A stretch of 64,000 bases of DNA from positions 1 through 64,000 of the forward strand of contig JAJVHX010000007.1 of NCBI GenBank assembly GCA_022072405.1, given 5' to 3'. The stretch is from Phycisphaerae bacterium. GTDB taxonomy: Bacteria > Planctomycetota > Phycisphaerae > UBA1845 > CAIVHJ01. Positions 55,081 to 61,767 of the stretch are shown here, piece by piece. Numbering within the stretch: position 1 is the first letter of the stretch; each line of letters begins with the position of its first letter. The position numbers and the translations under genes are program-made. The notes below the pieces were generated by a model, which saw only the letters and a program-made list of their open reading frames with translations, was not told where the DNA came from and ran no database searches.

Positions 55081-55401
55081 GCCGTGATGTATGACGAGTG
55101 CCTAAGAACCCACGGAGTCCATCTGTGGGTTTTTACATGCGCGTCGTGGACTGATCGGTCATCAATGATCGGAGGCAGGGCGCGCGGGGATCCGTTTTGA
55201 ACCATTGGGGAATTCCTGCCAAGTTCTGGTTTCGACGTCAGCTGTTAGCTGGGAGAGAAAATGGTCAGAAAGAACGGCCCCATAGATGGCTTTTGCCTGC
55301 TGGTCAGCGGTGTATCAAAATATCGCTCGCACGTTAATCCTTGTTTCCAGGTTCCTATCGAGGATTCTTCATCATGCCCCGCCGCGTCCTGTGAACAAAA
55401 T

Positions 55402-55691
55402 TTCTGATGCTCGCACCACCGCGGCTGCTGATCAGCCGATTCGCTGCCAGCGATTCCTCGGCGGACTGCTCAAACATTACTACCAGCCCGCCGCCTGACC
55501 AGACTCATCTGCCGAAATACTCTTGACTCGACATCGGAACTGTATTATTTATCGGCAGTGACTTCCTGGATGGCTCAGCATCCAGCTTGAGTTGTACGCC
55601 TCCTTCAAACCCCCATTCCATCGTTACACGCTACTCGAAAAACAAAAGGGACGAGCAGCAACATTTTCATACACCGCTGATACGGCGCGGG
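55402..55691 (+). mobile_element. 3'-end remnant of an integrase-type IS, copy A
   Basis: ~290 bp nearly identical to 58477-58765; encodes SDARTTAAADQPIRCQRFLGGLLKHYYQPAA*. Confidence 0.8.
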
Positions 55692-55733
55692 CGCGGTCAA
55701 TATCATCTCGTTGGAACTCATAAGCAATTAATC

Positions 55734-56291
55734 TTATTCCAAGCCTCTGAATTCAAAACCACGTAGTCGTATAGCTCCCTTATACAAACAATTCGTAAGG
55801 GCAGTAGAAAAGAGTTCTTTGTCAGCCAAGCACAAATAAAATAATCGACATCTATCTTGGGTCATAGTTCGTATTACAACCGTTCGATATCCGCCATTAT
55901 CCAGTTGTTGATAGAAGACGTCGTCGCTATCACGAATAATGTCGATCCAATCCTGCATTCGTCCTTCCAACGGGCCGACTATGCGAGTATCTTGCCCAAT
56001 GGACTCATTCCACGCTAGACTTGCTTTCAGTTCTGCCAAATCCTTAATACTGAAATCGCAAATAATGTGAAGGGATGCCTCATGTGTATATGGCTGATAA
56101 CGCAATTGAAAGTCAGATACTGTGTTCGGCAATCGGAGTTCCATGAAGTTTTCAATTGTAGTCAGTTCACCACGAGGAAACTTAGGTATTTGCATAGTAT
56201 CCGAAAAATGAATGACCACAAATATCGATGGTACAAGTACCGCAATTATTAACAACACAATTAAATTTCGTTTTCGCTGTGTCATTGTCAT
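55734..56291 (-). CDS. Candidate membrane-anchored immunity protein for Rhs tip 1
   Basis: N-terminal TM helix (NLIVLLIIAVLVPSIFVVIHFS) plus soluble domain; starts 14 bp after Rhs stop, same strand. Confidence 0.6.
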   Translation of the reverse strand: MTMTQRKRNLIVLLIIAVLVPSIFVVIHFSDTMQIPKFPRGELTTIENFMELRLPNTVSDFQLRYQPYTHEASLHIICDFSIKDLAELKASLAWNESIGQDTRIVGPLEGRMQDWIDIIRDSDDVFYQQLDNGGYRTVVIRTMTQDRCRLFYLCLADKELFSTALTNCLYKGAIRLRGFEFRGLE

Positions 56292-56305
56292 TGAAGTCCA
56301 CTAAA

Positions 56306-57466
56306 TTATGGACCAAAGTCCGTCTTTTGTATTACTTTCGAGTAAACATGCATTCCATAAAACCAATATTCAGATCCCAATTTCCATTTTATTCTGTATT
56401 TTAATAAACCATCAATTCGATAATCTCTCATAACACCGTATCTATGCATTTCAGCCATTTCATAATCATCAACAAAACCAGCTCCTACCCCTGGTGGTTG
56501 ATTGATATCCCAATCATAAAAATCTCTGAAGAATATAGTCCATACCATTTCATATATACTATTCTTGCATTTAATGTCAGTTGCCTTAGCATTAAAATAA
56601 AAGGCACCAACAGCAGTATTCCACGTGTCGGATGTCGCAACAACTCTATAGTCGTCATAGCTGACTATCTGCTTACCAAATGGCTTTTCGGACTCAACAT
56701 ATCTCATCGCACTTTCAACATAATCCGTAAATGCTTTACGTCCACCAACGTCTGATGATATTAACTTTTGTATGTCAATGGTTCTTGGAGTACCAGTGTT
56801 GTTGTAGAAGTGCCTTAGATGGTCAGCAGCAAGTTTATATAGGAACTGCCCACCCGTAAATGTCCGCCAAGTACGATCACGAACATCATCAATGTATGCC
56901 TTCTTGCCTACAGTGGACCATGATCCGTATAATTTTTTACTTTCTTCCATATCATGTGCATAGGGATGAGGTGGTGTCTCTGTACCTATCTTGTACGTAG
57001 CAAATCCAGAGTAATCAACATACTCTAACGGATTACTGCGTGCATACTCATAAAGGTTCATGCCATCGACATAAACATCCCCACGACTCCCACCTGTAAT
57101 CATTTGTAGGCCACGTTTGCCCCATCTAATCCTATCTCCCGCTACAGCAGGGTCTCTTTGCAACCATCTTCCATGTACTGGGTCATATTCTCTGCCTCTG
57201 CCGTAATACAACAGCAAATTCCCGCTATCGATCACGTCGAGGGGTTGTCCGGTGAAGAGGTAGGGGATGTTGTAGGCGGTGGCGGAGATCGGCGTGCCGG
57301 AGCCATTAAACAGCGACGGATCGCCGTAGGTGTCGTAGTCGTACTGTTCGACGAGCGTGGCGCTGGCGCTCGTCAGGCCAGCGACGCTGAAGAGTTCACG
57401 GTGAATATAATAATAGTCGCGCCCGCGGACCACGATGATCGGGTCGTATTCCACTTCCCACAGCAT
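56306..57466 (-). CDS. Orphan Rhs C-terminal tip 1: Rhs core end plus unknown toxin domain
   Basis: YTGQPLD-like YLFTGQPLDVIDSGNLLLYYGRGREYDPVHGRWLQRDP...DGMNLYEYARSNPLEYVDYSG then unrelated ~230 aa tail; frame opens upstream to about 57575. Confidence 0.85.
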   Translation of the reverse strand: MLWEVEYDPIIVVRGRDYYYIHRELFSVAGLTSASATLVEQYDYDTYGDPSLFNGSGTPISATAYNIPYLFTGQPLDVIDSGNLLLYYGRGREYDPVHGRWLQRDPAVAGDRIRWGKRGLQMITGGSRGDVYVDGMNLYEYARSNPLEYVDYSGFATYKIGTETPPHPYAHDMEESKKLYGSWSTVGKKAYIDDVRDRTWRTFTGGQFLYKLAADHLRHFYNNTGTPRTIDIQKLISSDVGGRKAFTDYVESAMRYVESEKPFGKQIVSYDDYRVVATSDTWNTAVGAFYFNAKATDIKCKNSIYEMVWTIFFRDFYDWDINQPPGVGAGFVDDYEMAEMHRYGVMRDYRIDGLLKYRIKWKLGSEYWFYGMHVYSKVIQKTDFGP

Positions 57467-57540
57467 CGTCGGGATACTGATGATCTCCGGAGCGGGGAGG
57501 AACTCCCACGAATAACTCTCCGCCGTGTCGCTGAATTTTT

Positions 57541-58152
57541 TCAGGTTGGCTTTTTTTCGGACGGCTCCTCAATATGTAGGTTTTTCAACAACTCCGGGTC
57601 GAATTCCGTACCGCATTCGGGACAAATAGCTTTTATTAGGTTAAATAAATCATAGCCACACAATAAGCATTGATATCGTCTAGATCGCTTTCTCTTCAAG
57701 AACCACAGATATACTCGATAAGCTGGAATTATACTGAAGATAACAGAAGGGATCCATAATGGTATCATCACTTCCCATACTAGCCCGGTAACAGCAGATG
57801 AGGTTACAATTGGCATCCATATTGTAAAAGTATTAAATTTATTTCCAATATGGAATCCAGTTACTTCAAGGTAGTCACCATTTATCTCAAATCCAGCTTT
57901 TTCCGTATCTTCCCAAATAAGGCATCCAGCACGCAACTTAAAAATAATATAATGATTTTCTCTTGATCTATCATTGCCTTTAAAAATTGTCCAATTAATT
58001 GTTCGATAACTAATTACCCATAATATTAAGCAGCATATAAACAAAATAGCAGATAATATTATGGCTTTCCCCGCTATTCTAGATTTCTTATCCTTAATCA
58101 CGGAAGTACCGGCCATTCTATTGAAGTAGTTTTCTCGCGTAATTTGCAGCAT
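57541..58152 (-). CDS. Multi-TM protein with C-terminal zinc ribbon (CLLCGYDLFNLIKAICPECGTEF)
   Basis: ORF 203 aa; 3' end overlaps Rhs fragment. Confidence 0.7.
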   Translation of the reverse strand: MLQITRENYFNRMAGTSVIKDKKSRIAGKAIILSAILFICCLILWVISYRTINWTIFKGNDRSRENHYIIFKLRAGCLIWEDTEKAGFEINGDYLEVTGFHIGNKFNTFTIWMPIVTSSAVTGLVWEVMIPLWIPSVIFSIIPAYRVYLWFLKRKRSRRYQCLLCGYDLFNLIKAICPECGTEFDPELLKNLHIEEPSEKKPT

Positions 58153-58319
58153 GCTTTATTGTTGCCCAGAAGATATTTATCCTCTATATCATTCCACTCA
58201 ACATCACTTACTTTTACTAATCTAGCAGCAGCTTGACAGTCCAACTCATGTCCATCAGAAATTCCATCTCGGTCAAAATCGTTCGCAACCAATGCTGCAT
58301 TAACAGCTGGCCTCATATT

Positions 58320-58765
58320 TCCTCGCGTCGCATGGCCTCCGCCATCTGCAACACATCGCCCGCGAATATGTCACTTTCTACAATCGCTATCGCCCCCATC
58401 AGGGTATCGGCAATCAACCACTGCCAACCGGTCCACCCCCGACTCGACCTCGCCGCCGAAGTTCGGCGAGCAGAACTTCTGATGCTCGCACCACCGCGGC
58501 TGCTGATCAGCCGATTCGCTGCCAACGATTCCTCGGCGGACTGCTCAAACATTACTACCACCCCGCCGCCTGATCAGACTCACCTCGCCTTGATGCTTGA
58601 CTCGAAACCCAATCCATATTATTTATCGGCAGTAACTTCCTGGATGGCTCAGCATCCAGCTTGAGTTGTACGCCTCCTTCAAACCCCCATTCCATCGTTA
58701 CACGCTACTCGAAAAACAAAAGGGACGAGCAGCAACATTTTCATACACCGCTGATACGGCGCGGG
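58320..58765 (+). mobile_element. 3'-end remnant of an integrase-type IS, copy B (longer)
   Basis: Frame reads HGLRHLQHIAREYVTFYNRYRPHQGIGNQPL...RCQRFLGGLLKHYYHPAA*, typical rve-transposase C-terminus; 58477-58765 matches copy A. Confidence 0.85.
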
Positions 58766-59060
58766 CTGATTCACTCCCGTCCGGCGAATAATCGTTAATA
58801 CCCTGTTTTCAGATACTTGCATCGTTTTCAGCCGCAGCGGACCGGTCCCGACCCTGTGATGAACCAGTTATCATATCCACACGGCTTCCATTTCCAATGA
58901 TCACCGCACTCATATTTGTTCATCCGATCCAGCGATTCCACGAACACCGCTTACACCGCTGCACAAAGTTGATCCAGCCCACTCGAAACATACCGATACC
59001 CTACCTACCCAAGCTCGCTTTCCGGTTCGTTTCTATTTTTGTACATTACGCTCACACCGC

Positions 59061-59450
59061 CTAAGATAAATTTCCTTGTTGTCTTCTAAAATTGCGCGGG
59101 ATCCAGCGATCTTTTCGCCCTTCTTCCAACTCCAGATATTTAACGACTGATCGAACAATTACGTCACCAGAAATCTCACGGACCACGATAAATGGTCCCC
59201 CTCTTGTATAAATATCTGTCGTCTCTTGCTCAAGAAGCACATCATTAATGAATTTCACAGAGCAGACACTGAATAAACGCCAGTTGATATCCGTATCATA
59301 ATATACTCGAATATCGGCGCATCTGGTCAGATCAGTAACATCACTACCTCTATCTAACTCAATGCGACTTATTCCTTCACAACTATGTTCCCTAATGCAG
59401 GACTCAATTTGACGTTGTAATTTTTCTTCTGCTTCAATACTCATACGCAA
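59061..59450 (-). CDS. Candidate soluble immunity protein for Rhs tip 2
   Basis: ORF 129 aa, no TM, starts 6 bp after Rhs stop on same strand. Confidence 0.6.
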   Translation of the reverse strand: MRMSIEAEEKLQRQIESCIREHSCEGISRIELDRGSDVTDLTRCADIRVYYDTDINWRLFSVCSVKFINDVLLEQETTDIYTRGGPFIVVREISGDVIVRSVVKYLELEEGRKDRWIPRNFRRQQGNLS

Positions 59451-59456
59451 ACTCCA

Positions 59457-60947
59457 TCAGTCGTACCAAAAAGTTACGATTTTGCCATCAGCAGTATAAA
59501 TCCCACCAGGAATACCATCGATTTTGTAGCCTACGCCCCCGTCGATAGGAAACTCGAATTTTTCATGTTTGTGTATATGCCAGAACGCTATCGCATCATC
59601 AGTATATTCTTCCAGCGTTAAGCCAAATTTCTTGGCGTGTTTTTCCCAATGGTATATGGTTTGTGCTTTATTACCCTTCCAATTATTCTGCACTTTATAC
59701 CATTCATTTGAAGACATATAGCTCTTAAAATAATCATCATAGGTTATTTTAGAGCGTCGTTGGAGCTTACCTGCTATTGGCTTAAGTAGTCCCCATGACT
59801 CCGGTACGCCGACATTGGCGCTGAGCCAGTTAAATGAATTCTTAAAACCAATCCAACCACCTACCAACTTCAAAGTACCGCTGAAGGTGATATTTTTAGC
59901 CTCCCACATGTCGCGCAGGCCGTCAACGATTCCAGCAGCGCTCAGCGCCAATCCGCCCGCCACCGCGGCCACCGGACAGAGTGCGCCAGCTACGCCAAAC
60001 GCAGCCGTAGTGAGCGCGGCATTAAAGACGCCCTGTGCAATCTGGTGCATCTTTTCCAACGCCCATTGACCAAAGGCCACGTTATCCGCATAAAGAGAGT
60101 AGATCGCGTCATCGACCGCAATAAACGGATCAAATAGCCCCAGTGGGTCGTTGCCGCGCAGCGGATTGCCGCGGAGATACTGATACAGATTCATCCCGTC
60201 GCCATATAACCCGCCGGCACTAAAGAGCAAACTGGCAACGGCATTCTCCGCATTCATTCGCATCGCCGTATAAAGAATCAGCGCCGTGTCATTGGGATCT
60301 CTTTGTAAGAATCGGCCCAGCGTGGGGGAATAGATGCGGGCGCGGTTGTGGTAGCATTTGATCTCCGGCAGATAGAGCAGCCCCTGGTGGCCGAAGGGAG
60401 ATTTGAGAATCGTCGTTTCCCAGTTGATCGCCTGGCCGGCGGCAGTTTCGGCAGCGAGGTAATTGCCATAGGGATCGAAGCTGTACTGATCCACCAGATT
60501 GCCGTTCACGTCGACCAGGCCGGTGACGTTGTAGTTGCCGTCACGCATCACGAAGTAGAGCACCGCCGACGTCGGCGAACTGTAGCGCCAGATCGCCACC
60601 GGCTCATCGACGTAATCAAACCCGTAGACGATGACGGTTTCGATCGTCCAGGGCGCCACCGGCGTGATGCCCGTCCCGCCCGACCACGACTCCAGCAGCC
60701 CCGGCAGCGATTCTCCGCCCGTTGCGCTCGTCCCCGTCCCGCCGCCGATTTCCAGACCCGCCTCCACCCCCGACGCATGCTGCAGCGTCCGCCGCTGTAT
60801 CTCAATGATCCGGCTGCCGTCGTAACGATAGCGCCACGCCCCTTCCAGCGACCCGCCCAGTGCCGTCACCTCCCGGACCATCAGCCGGCTCAACCCGTCA
60901 TACCGATAGCTCGACACCAGCCCGTCCGACTGATTCCGAACCTGCAC
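59457..60947 (-). CDS. Orphan Rhs C-terminal tip 2 with nuclease-like C-terminus
   Basis: Rhs repeats and GLLYLPEIKCYHNRARIYSPTLGRFLQRDPN...DGMNLYQYLRGNPLRGNDPLGLFD; C-term HWEKHAKKFGLTLEEYTDDAIAFWHIHKHEKFEF...GIPGGIYTADGKIVTFWYD. Confidence 0.87.
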   Translation of the reverse strand: MQVRNQSDGLVSSYRYDGLSRLMVREVTALGGSLEGAWRYRYDGSRIIEIQRRTLQHASGVEAGLEIGGGTGTSATGGESLPGLLESWSGGTGITPVAPWTIETVIVYGFDYVDEPVAIWRYSSPTSAVLYFVMRDGNYNVTGLVDVNGNLVDQYSFDPYGNYLAAETAAGQAINWETTILKSPFGHQGLLYLPEIKCYHNRARIYSPTLGRFLQRDPNDTALILYTAMRMNAENAVASLLFSAGGLYGDGMNLYQYLRGNPLRGNDPLGLFDPFIAVDDAIYSLYADNVAFGQWALEKMHQIAQGVFNAALTTAAFGVAGALCPVAAVAGGLALSAAGIVDGLRDMWEAKNITFSGTLKLVGGWIGFKNSFNWLSANVGVPESWGLLKPIAGKLQRRSKITYDDYFKSYMSSNEWYKVQNNWKGNKAQTIYHWEKHAKKFGLTLEEYTDDAIAFWHIHKHEKFEFPIDGGVGYKIDGIPGGIYTADGKIVTFWYD

Positions 60948-61161: not shown

Positions 61162-61767
61162 TCAATGCTGCAACAGCTTCTGGTTGTCAATCCGCCGGCC
61201 ACATTCCGGACAGACACCACTGAGGTTACCCGTCAGGTCATAATCACATTGCCAGCAAAACCGATCCTGTGCTTTTTGCGCTTGCTGAACGAGATAATTC
61301 CGCCAGCGAAATCCGCACCAGATCATCCATGATACAAATGCCAGAATAGTGATAAATAATGGACACCAATCGGACCAGTTCAACTGAGCGTTCAGTGCCG
61401 AGATGAATATGGCATATAAGAATGATCCCCAGATCAATGTGGCGACGGTGCCGGCCACACAGCATGGAGTGGTTTCCAGTCGAAAGCACCAGATACCATA
61501 GCCGAATCCGAAGCCTGCCAGAATAATGATGGCAACGACGTGACTGAATGATTCAACTCGCGAGGCGGTTTCCAGGAGAAACAGTACGGGGACGATAAAT
61601 ACGATGGGCGTTGAAGCGACAACGGTACGTTGCATTTCGGAATCGACAAGGTGGCGACTGGTAAATAGTGTAAAAGCGGCGACAATCAGGCAGGCCAGCA
61701 ACGATTGCGGGCCAACAGGATTTAGATCATAAAAATAGAATCCACCACAGGCCAGCATGGATAGCAC
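61162..61767 (-). CDS. Multi-TM protein with C-terminal zinc ribbon (CWQCDYDLTGNLSGVCPECGRR)
   Basis: ORF 201 aa; paralog of 57541-58152 and 6.1-7.4 kb proteins. Confidence 0.7.
   Translation of the reverse strand: MLSMLACGGFYFYDLNPVGPQSLLACLIVAAFTLFTSRHLVDSEMQRTVVASTPIVFIVPVLFLLETASRVESFSHVVAIIILAGFGFGYGIWCFRLETTPCCVAGTVATLIWGSFLYAIFISALNAQLNWSDWCPLFITILAFVSWMIWCGFRWRNYLVQQAQKAQDRFCWQCDYDLTGNLSGVCPECGRRIDNQKLLQH

Follow-up and report, generated by a model that had tools for sequence, protein, structure and literature searches.

The window, i.e., the whole stretch of 64,000 nucleotides analysed here, carries on its minus strand a reading frame (56309-57568) that is open over 420 codons and encodes the end of an Rhs core followed by a tail of 233 residues. 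The core is recognised by the Rhs-associated core model TIGR03696 (score 42.5 bits, cut-off 32.5) and directly precedes a variable C-terminal domain, the arrangement of Rhs polymorphic toxins; the GC content, 54% for the core fragment, falls to 38.5% in the tail and 40.5% in the partner gene that follows. The partner gene, for a protein of 185 aa (coding 55737-56291, stop codon 55734-55736), starts 14 bases past the stop of the 56309-57568 frame. The ATG at 57466 is merely the first start codon of this frame, and Rhs core homology reaches approximately 57532. An Rhs core followed by a tail of about 230 residues is what the original prediction had described, and this part is borne out by the 420-codon frame, the TIGR03696 match and the 233-residue tail. 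The range that it had given, 55734-57575, does contain both features, but its upper end runs into the 3′ end of the gene before it (57541-58152); it had also called the locus an Rhs tip, of which core and tail are real, but only as a core fragment and a tail and not as a whole Rhs protein. The features are listed below, L107 being the locus, on contig C19 of the same genome, of the closest full-length Rhs gene.

55192-55692, plus strand: remnant (3′ end) of an rve_3 integrase-type transposase, found also behind another cassette; matches L107:11388-11692, L107:12690-12882 and window 58453-58766
55734-56291, minus strand: candidate immunity protein of 185 aa, one N-terminal TM helix and a predicted extracytoplasmic alpha/beta domain (TM segment; AlphaFold2 model, pLDDT 73; exported proteins at the equivalent position in relatives)
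56309-57007, minus strand: putative C-terminal toxin domain with a predicted colicin-M-like fold (AlphaFold2 model, Foldseek, family alignment A3, GC 38.5%)
57008-57532, minus strand: 3′ end of an Rhs core carrying the Rhs_assc_core signature, a fragment displaced from a full-length Rhs gene (TIGR03696, 42.5 bits; 66.7% identity to the C19 Rhs; GC 54%)
57541-58152, minus strand: membrane protein with a zinc-ribbon end, partner gene of a neighbouring metallopeptidase-type cassette, its 3′ end abutting the orphan cassette; 42% identical to the gene after the C19 Rhs (L107:10675-11286)
58098-58340, minus strand: what remains of the C-terminal part of a second tip; the C19 Rhs has a homologous tip of the HExxH metallopeptidase type (L107:10408-10611, 59% identical across 69 residues)
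58453-58766, plus strand: second copy of the transposase remnant, 91.5% identical to 55379-55692

The genome (3.57 Mb in 28 contigs) carries full-length Rhs genes, the closest of which (L107:2125-10647) encodes a protein of 2840 aa with a hydrophobic, signal-like N-terminus and FG-GAP-like and YD repeats. Over residues 12-188 the window frame shares 66.7% identity with the end of the C19 Rhs core, and the homology ends at the start of the tail: the C19 Rhs has the same core and a different tip. The window frame, which opens at approximately 57568 and holds about 175 residues of core, has neither a complete YD-repeat shell nor an N-terminal delivery part, and the DNA upstream of its core fragment belongs to another cassette. 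The locus, with a core fragment homologous to a full-length Rhs of the genome and a foreign tip and candidate immunity gene behind it, is a displaced orphan Rhs cassette and not a complete Rhs protein. Since the N-terminal part is missing, the tip is probably silent at its present site until recombined. The cassette would comprise about 175 residues of Rhs core, toxin, immunity gene and transposase remnant, and we infer that recombination via the shared core could put the tip on a full-length, exported Rhs protein. Orphan Rhs cassettes of the kind described for Salmonella (PMC3967940) likewise consist of a 3′ fragment of the core, a tip and an immunity gene displaced from a full-length Rhs; the window differs in that the full-length homologue is on a separate contig and the cassettes have transposase remnants between them. 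The window thus offers a concrete case of Rhs tip displacement beyond the well-studied enterobacteria. Note also that an intact rve_3-type transposase (L107:11579-12736, minus strand, matching PF13683) lies behind the C19 Rhs, and that two of the window's cassettes have transposase remnants behind them. The direct repeats 55379-55692 and 58453-58766 were considered as recombination arms of the cassettes and rejected, as they are remnants of rve_3-type transposases.

It is possible, though doubtful, that the window copy is a relic, having the fold described below and decaying without an expressed toxin, with only the immunity gene (or nothing) in use, which would be compatible with the function proposed for the domain. 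The absence of an N-terminal export part, the truncated core and the transposase and tip remnants at the flanks would agree with decay, whereas both frames are fully open, the conserved positions are intact and orphan Rhs toxin expression is reported to be under selection in Salmonella (PMC3967940).

Searching with the tail as a single sequence retrieved one plasmid relative, from Polymorphobacter (25% identity, E 7e-7), and the Polymorphobacter protein used as query led to relatives on Streptomyces and Mycobacteroides plasmids. An alignment of the plasmid relatives, searched in GTDB species genomes, gave 150 confirmed places, 80 of which were kept; the tail is no chance frame, because its relatives occur in 80 genome loci and on plasmids. 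Family members are found in Sphingomonas, other Alphaproteobacteria, Pelomonas and Undibacterium (Burkholderiales), Moraxella, Verrucomicrobia, Planctomycetota, a Chthonomonadales bin and many Actinomycetota, i.e., in about five phyla. Among 393 genomes of the window's phylum, a profile search detected the family in six, namely the window genome and five more; of the latter, three match at E < 1e-14, each at the end of an Rhs-type protein, and in two the match is limited to the N-terminal half of the domain. In the same phylum, the L105 and L106 proteins are TM-anchored, match only the N-terminal helical half and have no D-x-Y-D; they are possibly non-toxin relatives. The viral contigs and phage records searched contained no relatives of the tail, scans of tail and neighbour against Pfam, NCBIfam, PHROGs and PADLOC gave no usable match and leave the domain without a model in these collections, and the motif string DRYNWD did not occur in the literature searched. 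The tail family is an unnamed family.

As annotated with NCBIfam, the domain terminates Rhs proteins in L022, L029 and L102. In Undibacterium (L027) it adjoins a VgrG gene, and in L021 it forms a fusion with a peptidoglycan-binding domain (PF01471, E 9e-11). In Actinomycetota it ends long proteins whose N-termini match WXG100- and PPE-type models below threshold only (E about 0.04), and type VII delivery in this phylum is a lead and not a result. These varied contexts show a mobile toxin module.

An AlphaFold2 model of the tail, built with 51 sequences, has a mean pLDDT of 83.3 and a pTM of 0.78. Its best PDB match in Foldseek is syringacin M (4fzl, E 6.8e-4, probability 1.00), and PaeM (4g76 and 4g75, probability 1.00), further syringacin M entries (0.98 and 0.89) and colicin M (2xtr, 0.66; 2xtq, 0.63) are also matched. 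ColM-family chains hold seven of ranks 1-8, the sole other chain in the top eight being a Bacteroides fragilis T6SS effector (9jdi, probability 0.99 over 76 columns), and from rank 9 onward the probability is at most 0.18 among the matches listed. The Foldseek TM-scores are low (0.38), and just one match has E < 1e-3. At E up to 10, Pfam PF14859 (Colicin_M) matched neither the window tail nor any of the 51 members, and the DUF3289 profile matched none of the 51; a PDB sequence search with a single sequence and two profiles returned chance matches only and no ColM chain, and predicted viral structures gave nothing significant against the tail model. The model thus predicts a ColM catalytic-domain fold for the tail. 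The original prediction had drawn its parallel with colicin M from the topology of the neighbour alone, leaving the tail to HMM and structure searches; the four profile collections came back empty, but the structure search leads to colicin M family chains.

The window tail carries the motif D162-F-Y164-D165-W-D167 (DFYDWD; numbering in P0001). In alignment A3 the family motif D-x-Y-[ND]-W-D is invariant, a conservation that stems partly from the selection of hits, because the search pattern included part of this motif; divergent relatives have DWYNFN and DGFNFD. Other positions, none of them demanded by the search pattern, are conserved as well: D181 in 100% and H66, G72, W129, G134, H188, G191 and G200 in 94-98%. 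The motif resembles the catalytic D-K-Y-D-F-N of colicin M, where alanine mutation within the stretch D226-KYDFNASTH-R236 has shown that D226, Y228, D229, H235 and R236 are each needed (PMC8469651). The position of colicin M D229 is mostly N in family members. Between D162 and H188 the spacing is 26 residues, against 9 in the DxYDx5HR of colicin M, and H188 is followed by Arg in the window (HR), an Arg that is not kept family-wide; because of this longer spacing and variable Arg, the equivalence of H188 with H235-R236 is not proven. PF14859 was also used to search 4, 147 and 369 genomes for genuine ColM sequences and found none, the controls likewise being without a match; as no ColM sequences were thereby collected for a profile-profile comparison, the case for a residue-by-residue equivalence with colicin M is built on the published motif and Foldseek.

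The departure of motif spacing and composition from DxYDx5HR would also fit a ColM fold with another extracytoplasmic action, directed at a different undecaprenyl-(pyro)phosphate-linked intermediate or consisting of non-catalytic lipid II binding that damages the membrane; in keeping with the latter type of action, pectocin M1 lyses cells from the periplasm even when catalytically dead (PMC5821083). We regard such an action as unlikely, given that the whole family retains the invariant D181 and, within the catalytic stretch, the D, Y and D/N, and that ColM enzymes accept lipid II of several chemotypes, Gram-positive ones included (PMC8469651; PMC5821083).

The partner gene bears on where the tail would act. 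A single TM-like segment is present in the 185-aa protein, at residues 10-28 (Kyte-Doolittle mean 3.04; later maximum 0.81); because RKR precedes this segment, the protein is assigned an N-in/C-out topology, in agreement with the single N-terminal TM helix and likely outside C-terminal domain originally described. In 80 relatives, the gene directly downstream of the domain encodes mostly a lipoprotein or a protein with a single N-terminal TM segment, often with an ATGA overlap. When genes were chosen by a rule that takes no account of hydrophobicity, a lipobox or an N-terminal hydrophobic segment was present at 67 of 79 loci, compared with 5 of 28 control gene pairs drawn from these loci. The window tail, with its TM-anchored neighbour, and most of its relatives, with their exported partners, are hence each adjoined by a membrane-associated or extracytoplasmic protein. 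A profile of the actinobacterial partners from which signal regions had been removed finds the Sphingomonas partners (E 2e-8 and 4e-7), with weaker matches in other Alphaproteobacteria, and one partner family is common to Streptomyces and Sphingomonas. Since this family is detectable between actinobacteria and Sphingomonas, toxin and partner seem to have moved between phyla as a pair. For the Polymorphobacter partner (L012:4768-5145, plasmid NZ_CP080242.1), the annotated start is internal, and an upstream in-frame start yields a lipoprotein signal (MTYRLGRFVVASALLLQLAGCG). Some members have unrelated partners, such as the TM-anchored leucine-rich-repeat protein located 3′ of the Rhs tip in L103, which recalls the description of ColM immunity as an ‘amalgam of immunity partners’ (PMC5821083).

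The 185-aa protein of the window shows no significant relation to the partner family (E 0.09; 2.9 bits), and reaches 5.9 bits against the L022, L023 and L029 partners, a score attained by 0 of 300 shuffles. Plasmids contained no homologues of it, and 393 genomes of the phylum nothing better than a marginal E of 0.008. A fold search with its AlphaFold2 model (pLDDT 73) gave a list that includes secreted alpha/beta proteins, MTC28, LpqN, SciW and Tsi3; because every match has E >= 0.058, no fold is claimed. It is probably the immunity protein of the cassette, a candidate by position and topology and not by homology. A periplasmic or membrane target, as originally proposed, finds good support in the predicted ColM fold, the D-x-Y-D motif and the exported partners of relatives. 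That the tail is instead a cytoplasmic toxin (a nuclease or similar) beside a TM protein unrelated to immunity, which the neighbour's want of a significant homologue would allow, is most improbable in view of the ColM fold match of the tail model, the exported partners in 67/79 relatives and the fusion of L021 to a peptidoglycan-binding domain.

We consider it likely that the tail is a toxin of the ColM superfamily, that it hydrolyses lipid II outside the cytoplasm and that a membrane-anchored protein confers immunity. Lipid II cleavage by colicin M takes place on the periplasmic side (PMC5821083), and the same reaction is the best reading for the tail because of its fold, the kept motif and the extracytoplasmic partners in both diderms and monoderms. 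The toxin would be delivered to the outer face of the cytoplasmic membrane of a competitor, where it would hydrolyse lipid II (the undecaprenyl-PP-linked peptidoglycan precursor), the substrate that we infer, and thereby stop wall synthesis. D162, Y164, D165/D167 and probably H188 would form the putative active site, and the 185-aa protein, N-in/C-out, would block the toxin outside the cytoplasm. For the family as a whole, we lean towards a cross-phylum ColM branch whose predicted lipid II-degrading domains serve as tips or as cargo, carried by Rhs proteins, VgrG-linked proteins and (probably) type VII proteins of the WXG/PPE-like kind, in Gram-negative and Gram-positive bacteria alike. The branch would have travelled together with a single dedicated family of immunity proteins, lipoproteins or TM-anchored ones, and would be the first of the colicin M type in monoderms.

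Few proteins destroy lipid II; the colicin M-type enzymes, which do, have been reviewed as Gram-negative bacteriocins. The reviews cover ColM-type toxins of Enterobacteriaceae, Pectobacterium, Pseudomonas and Burkholderia (PMC5821083, PMC8469651), and colicin M goes unmentioned in the accessible part of the 2012 survey of polymorphic toxins. With the PF14859 bacteriocins (colicin M, syringacin M/PsyM, PaeM, pectocins M and burkhocins) the tail shares the predicted catalytic fold, D-x-Y-D and, in its candidate partner, an extracytoplasmic, membrane-associated immunity protein, but it has no PF14859 sequence match and a longer loop before the conserved His; moreover, the tail family forms the tips of Rhs and other large proteins instead of receptor-binding bacteriocins and, unlike the latter, occurs in Actinomycetota, Planctomycetota and Verrucomicrobia. 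The DUF3289/DUF943 effector-immunity pair, which extends ColM-type toxins to T6SS (PMC11148199), also has a ColM-type domain, which is toxic in the periplasm and serves a contact-dependent system, whereas the tail and its relatives have no match to the DUF3289 Pfam profile and a different partner. A novel, unnamed ColM-fold toxin domain in the 2025 lipocone paper (PMC12419801) likewise belongs to a polymorphic toxin with membrane-anchored, BamE-like immunity; it is reported to sit behind a cystatin-like domain and, compared by description only, may or may not be the tail family. TelC, a T7SS lipid II phosphatase of Streptococcus, shares extracytoplasmic action and the lipid II target predicted for the tail, but its fold is reported to differ from ColM (PMC5821083) and it is absent among the structural matches listed for the tail. 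If the function is confirmed, many ‘hypothetical proteins’ of Streptomyces and relatives would gain a testable function, and the family would supply new candidate lipid II hydrolases and inhibitors.

We also would like to point out the other cassettes around the colicin-M-like one. The tip of the C19 Rhs is of the HExxH metallopeptidase type (HHIVHEILHRKQ), with a zinc-ribbon membrane protein, likely its immunity protein, encoded next to it. In the window, the metallopeptidase-type tip remnant and its zinc-ribbon partner (57541-58340) are joined end to end with the colicin-M-like cassette. Further upstream, a third cassette within 59061-60947 (its tip cassette being given also as 59457-60947) consists of an Rhs core fragment and a different C-terminal domain; this tip (HWEKHAKKF...YTADGKIVTFWYD) has a nuclease-like look, and its partner is 129 aa long. 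Finally, a TM/zinc-ribbon protein at 61162-61767 (CWQCDYDLTGNLSGVCPECG) resembles the partner at 57541-58152 and possibly adds another gene of the immunity type to the array.
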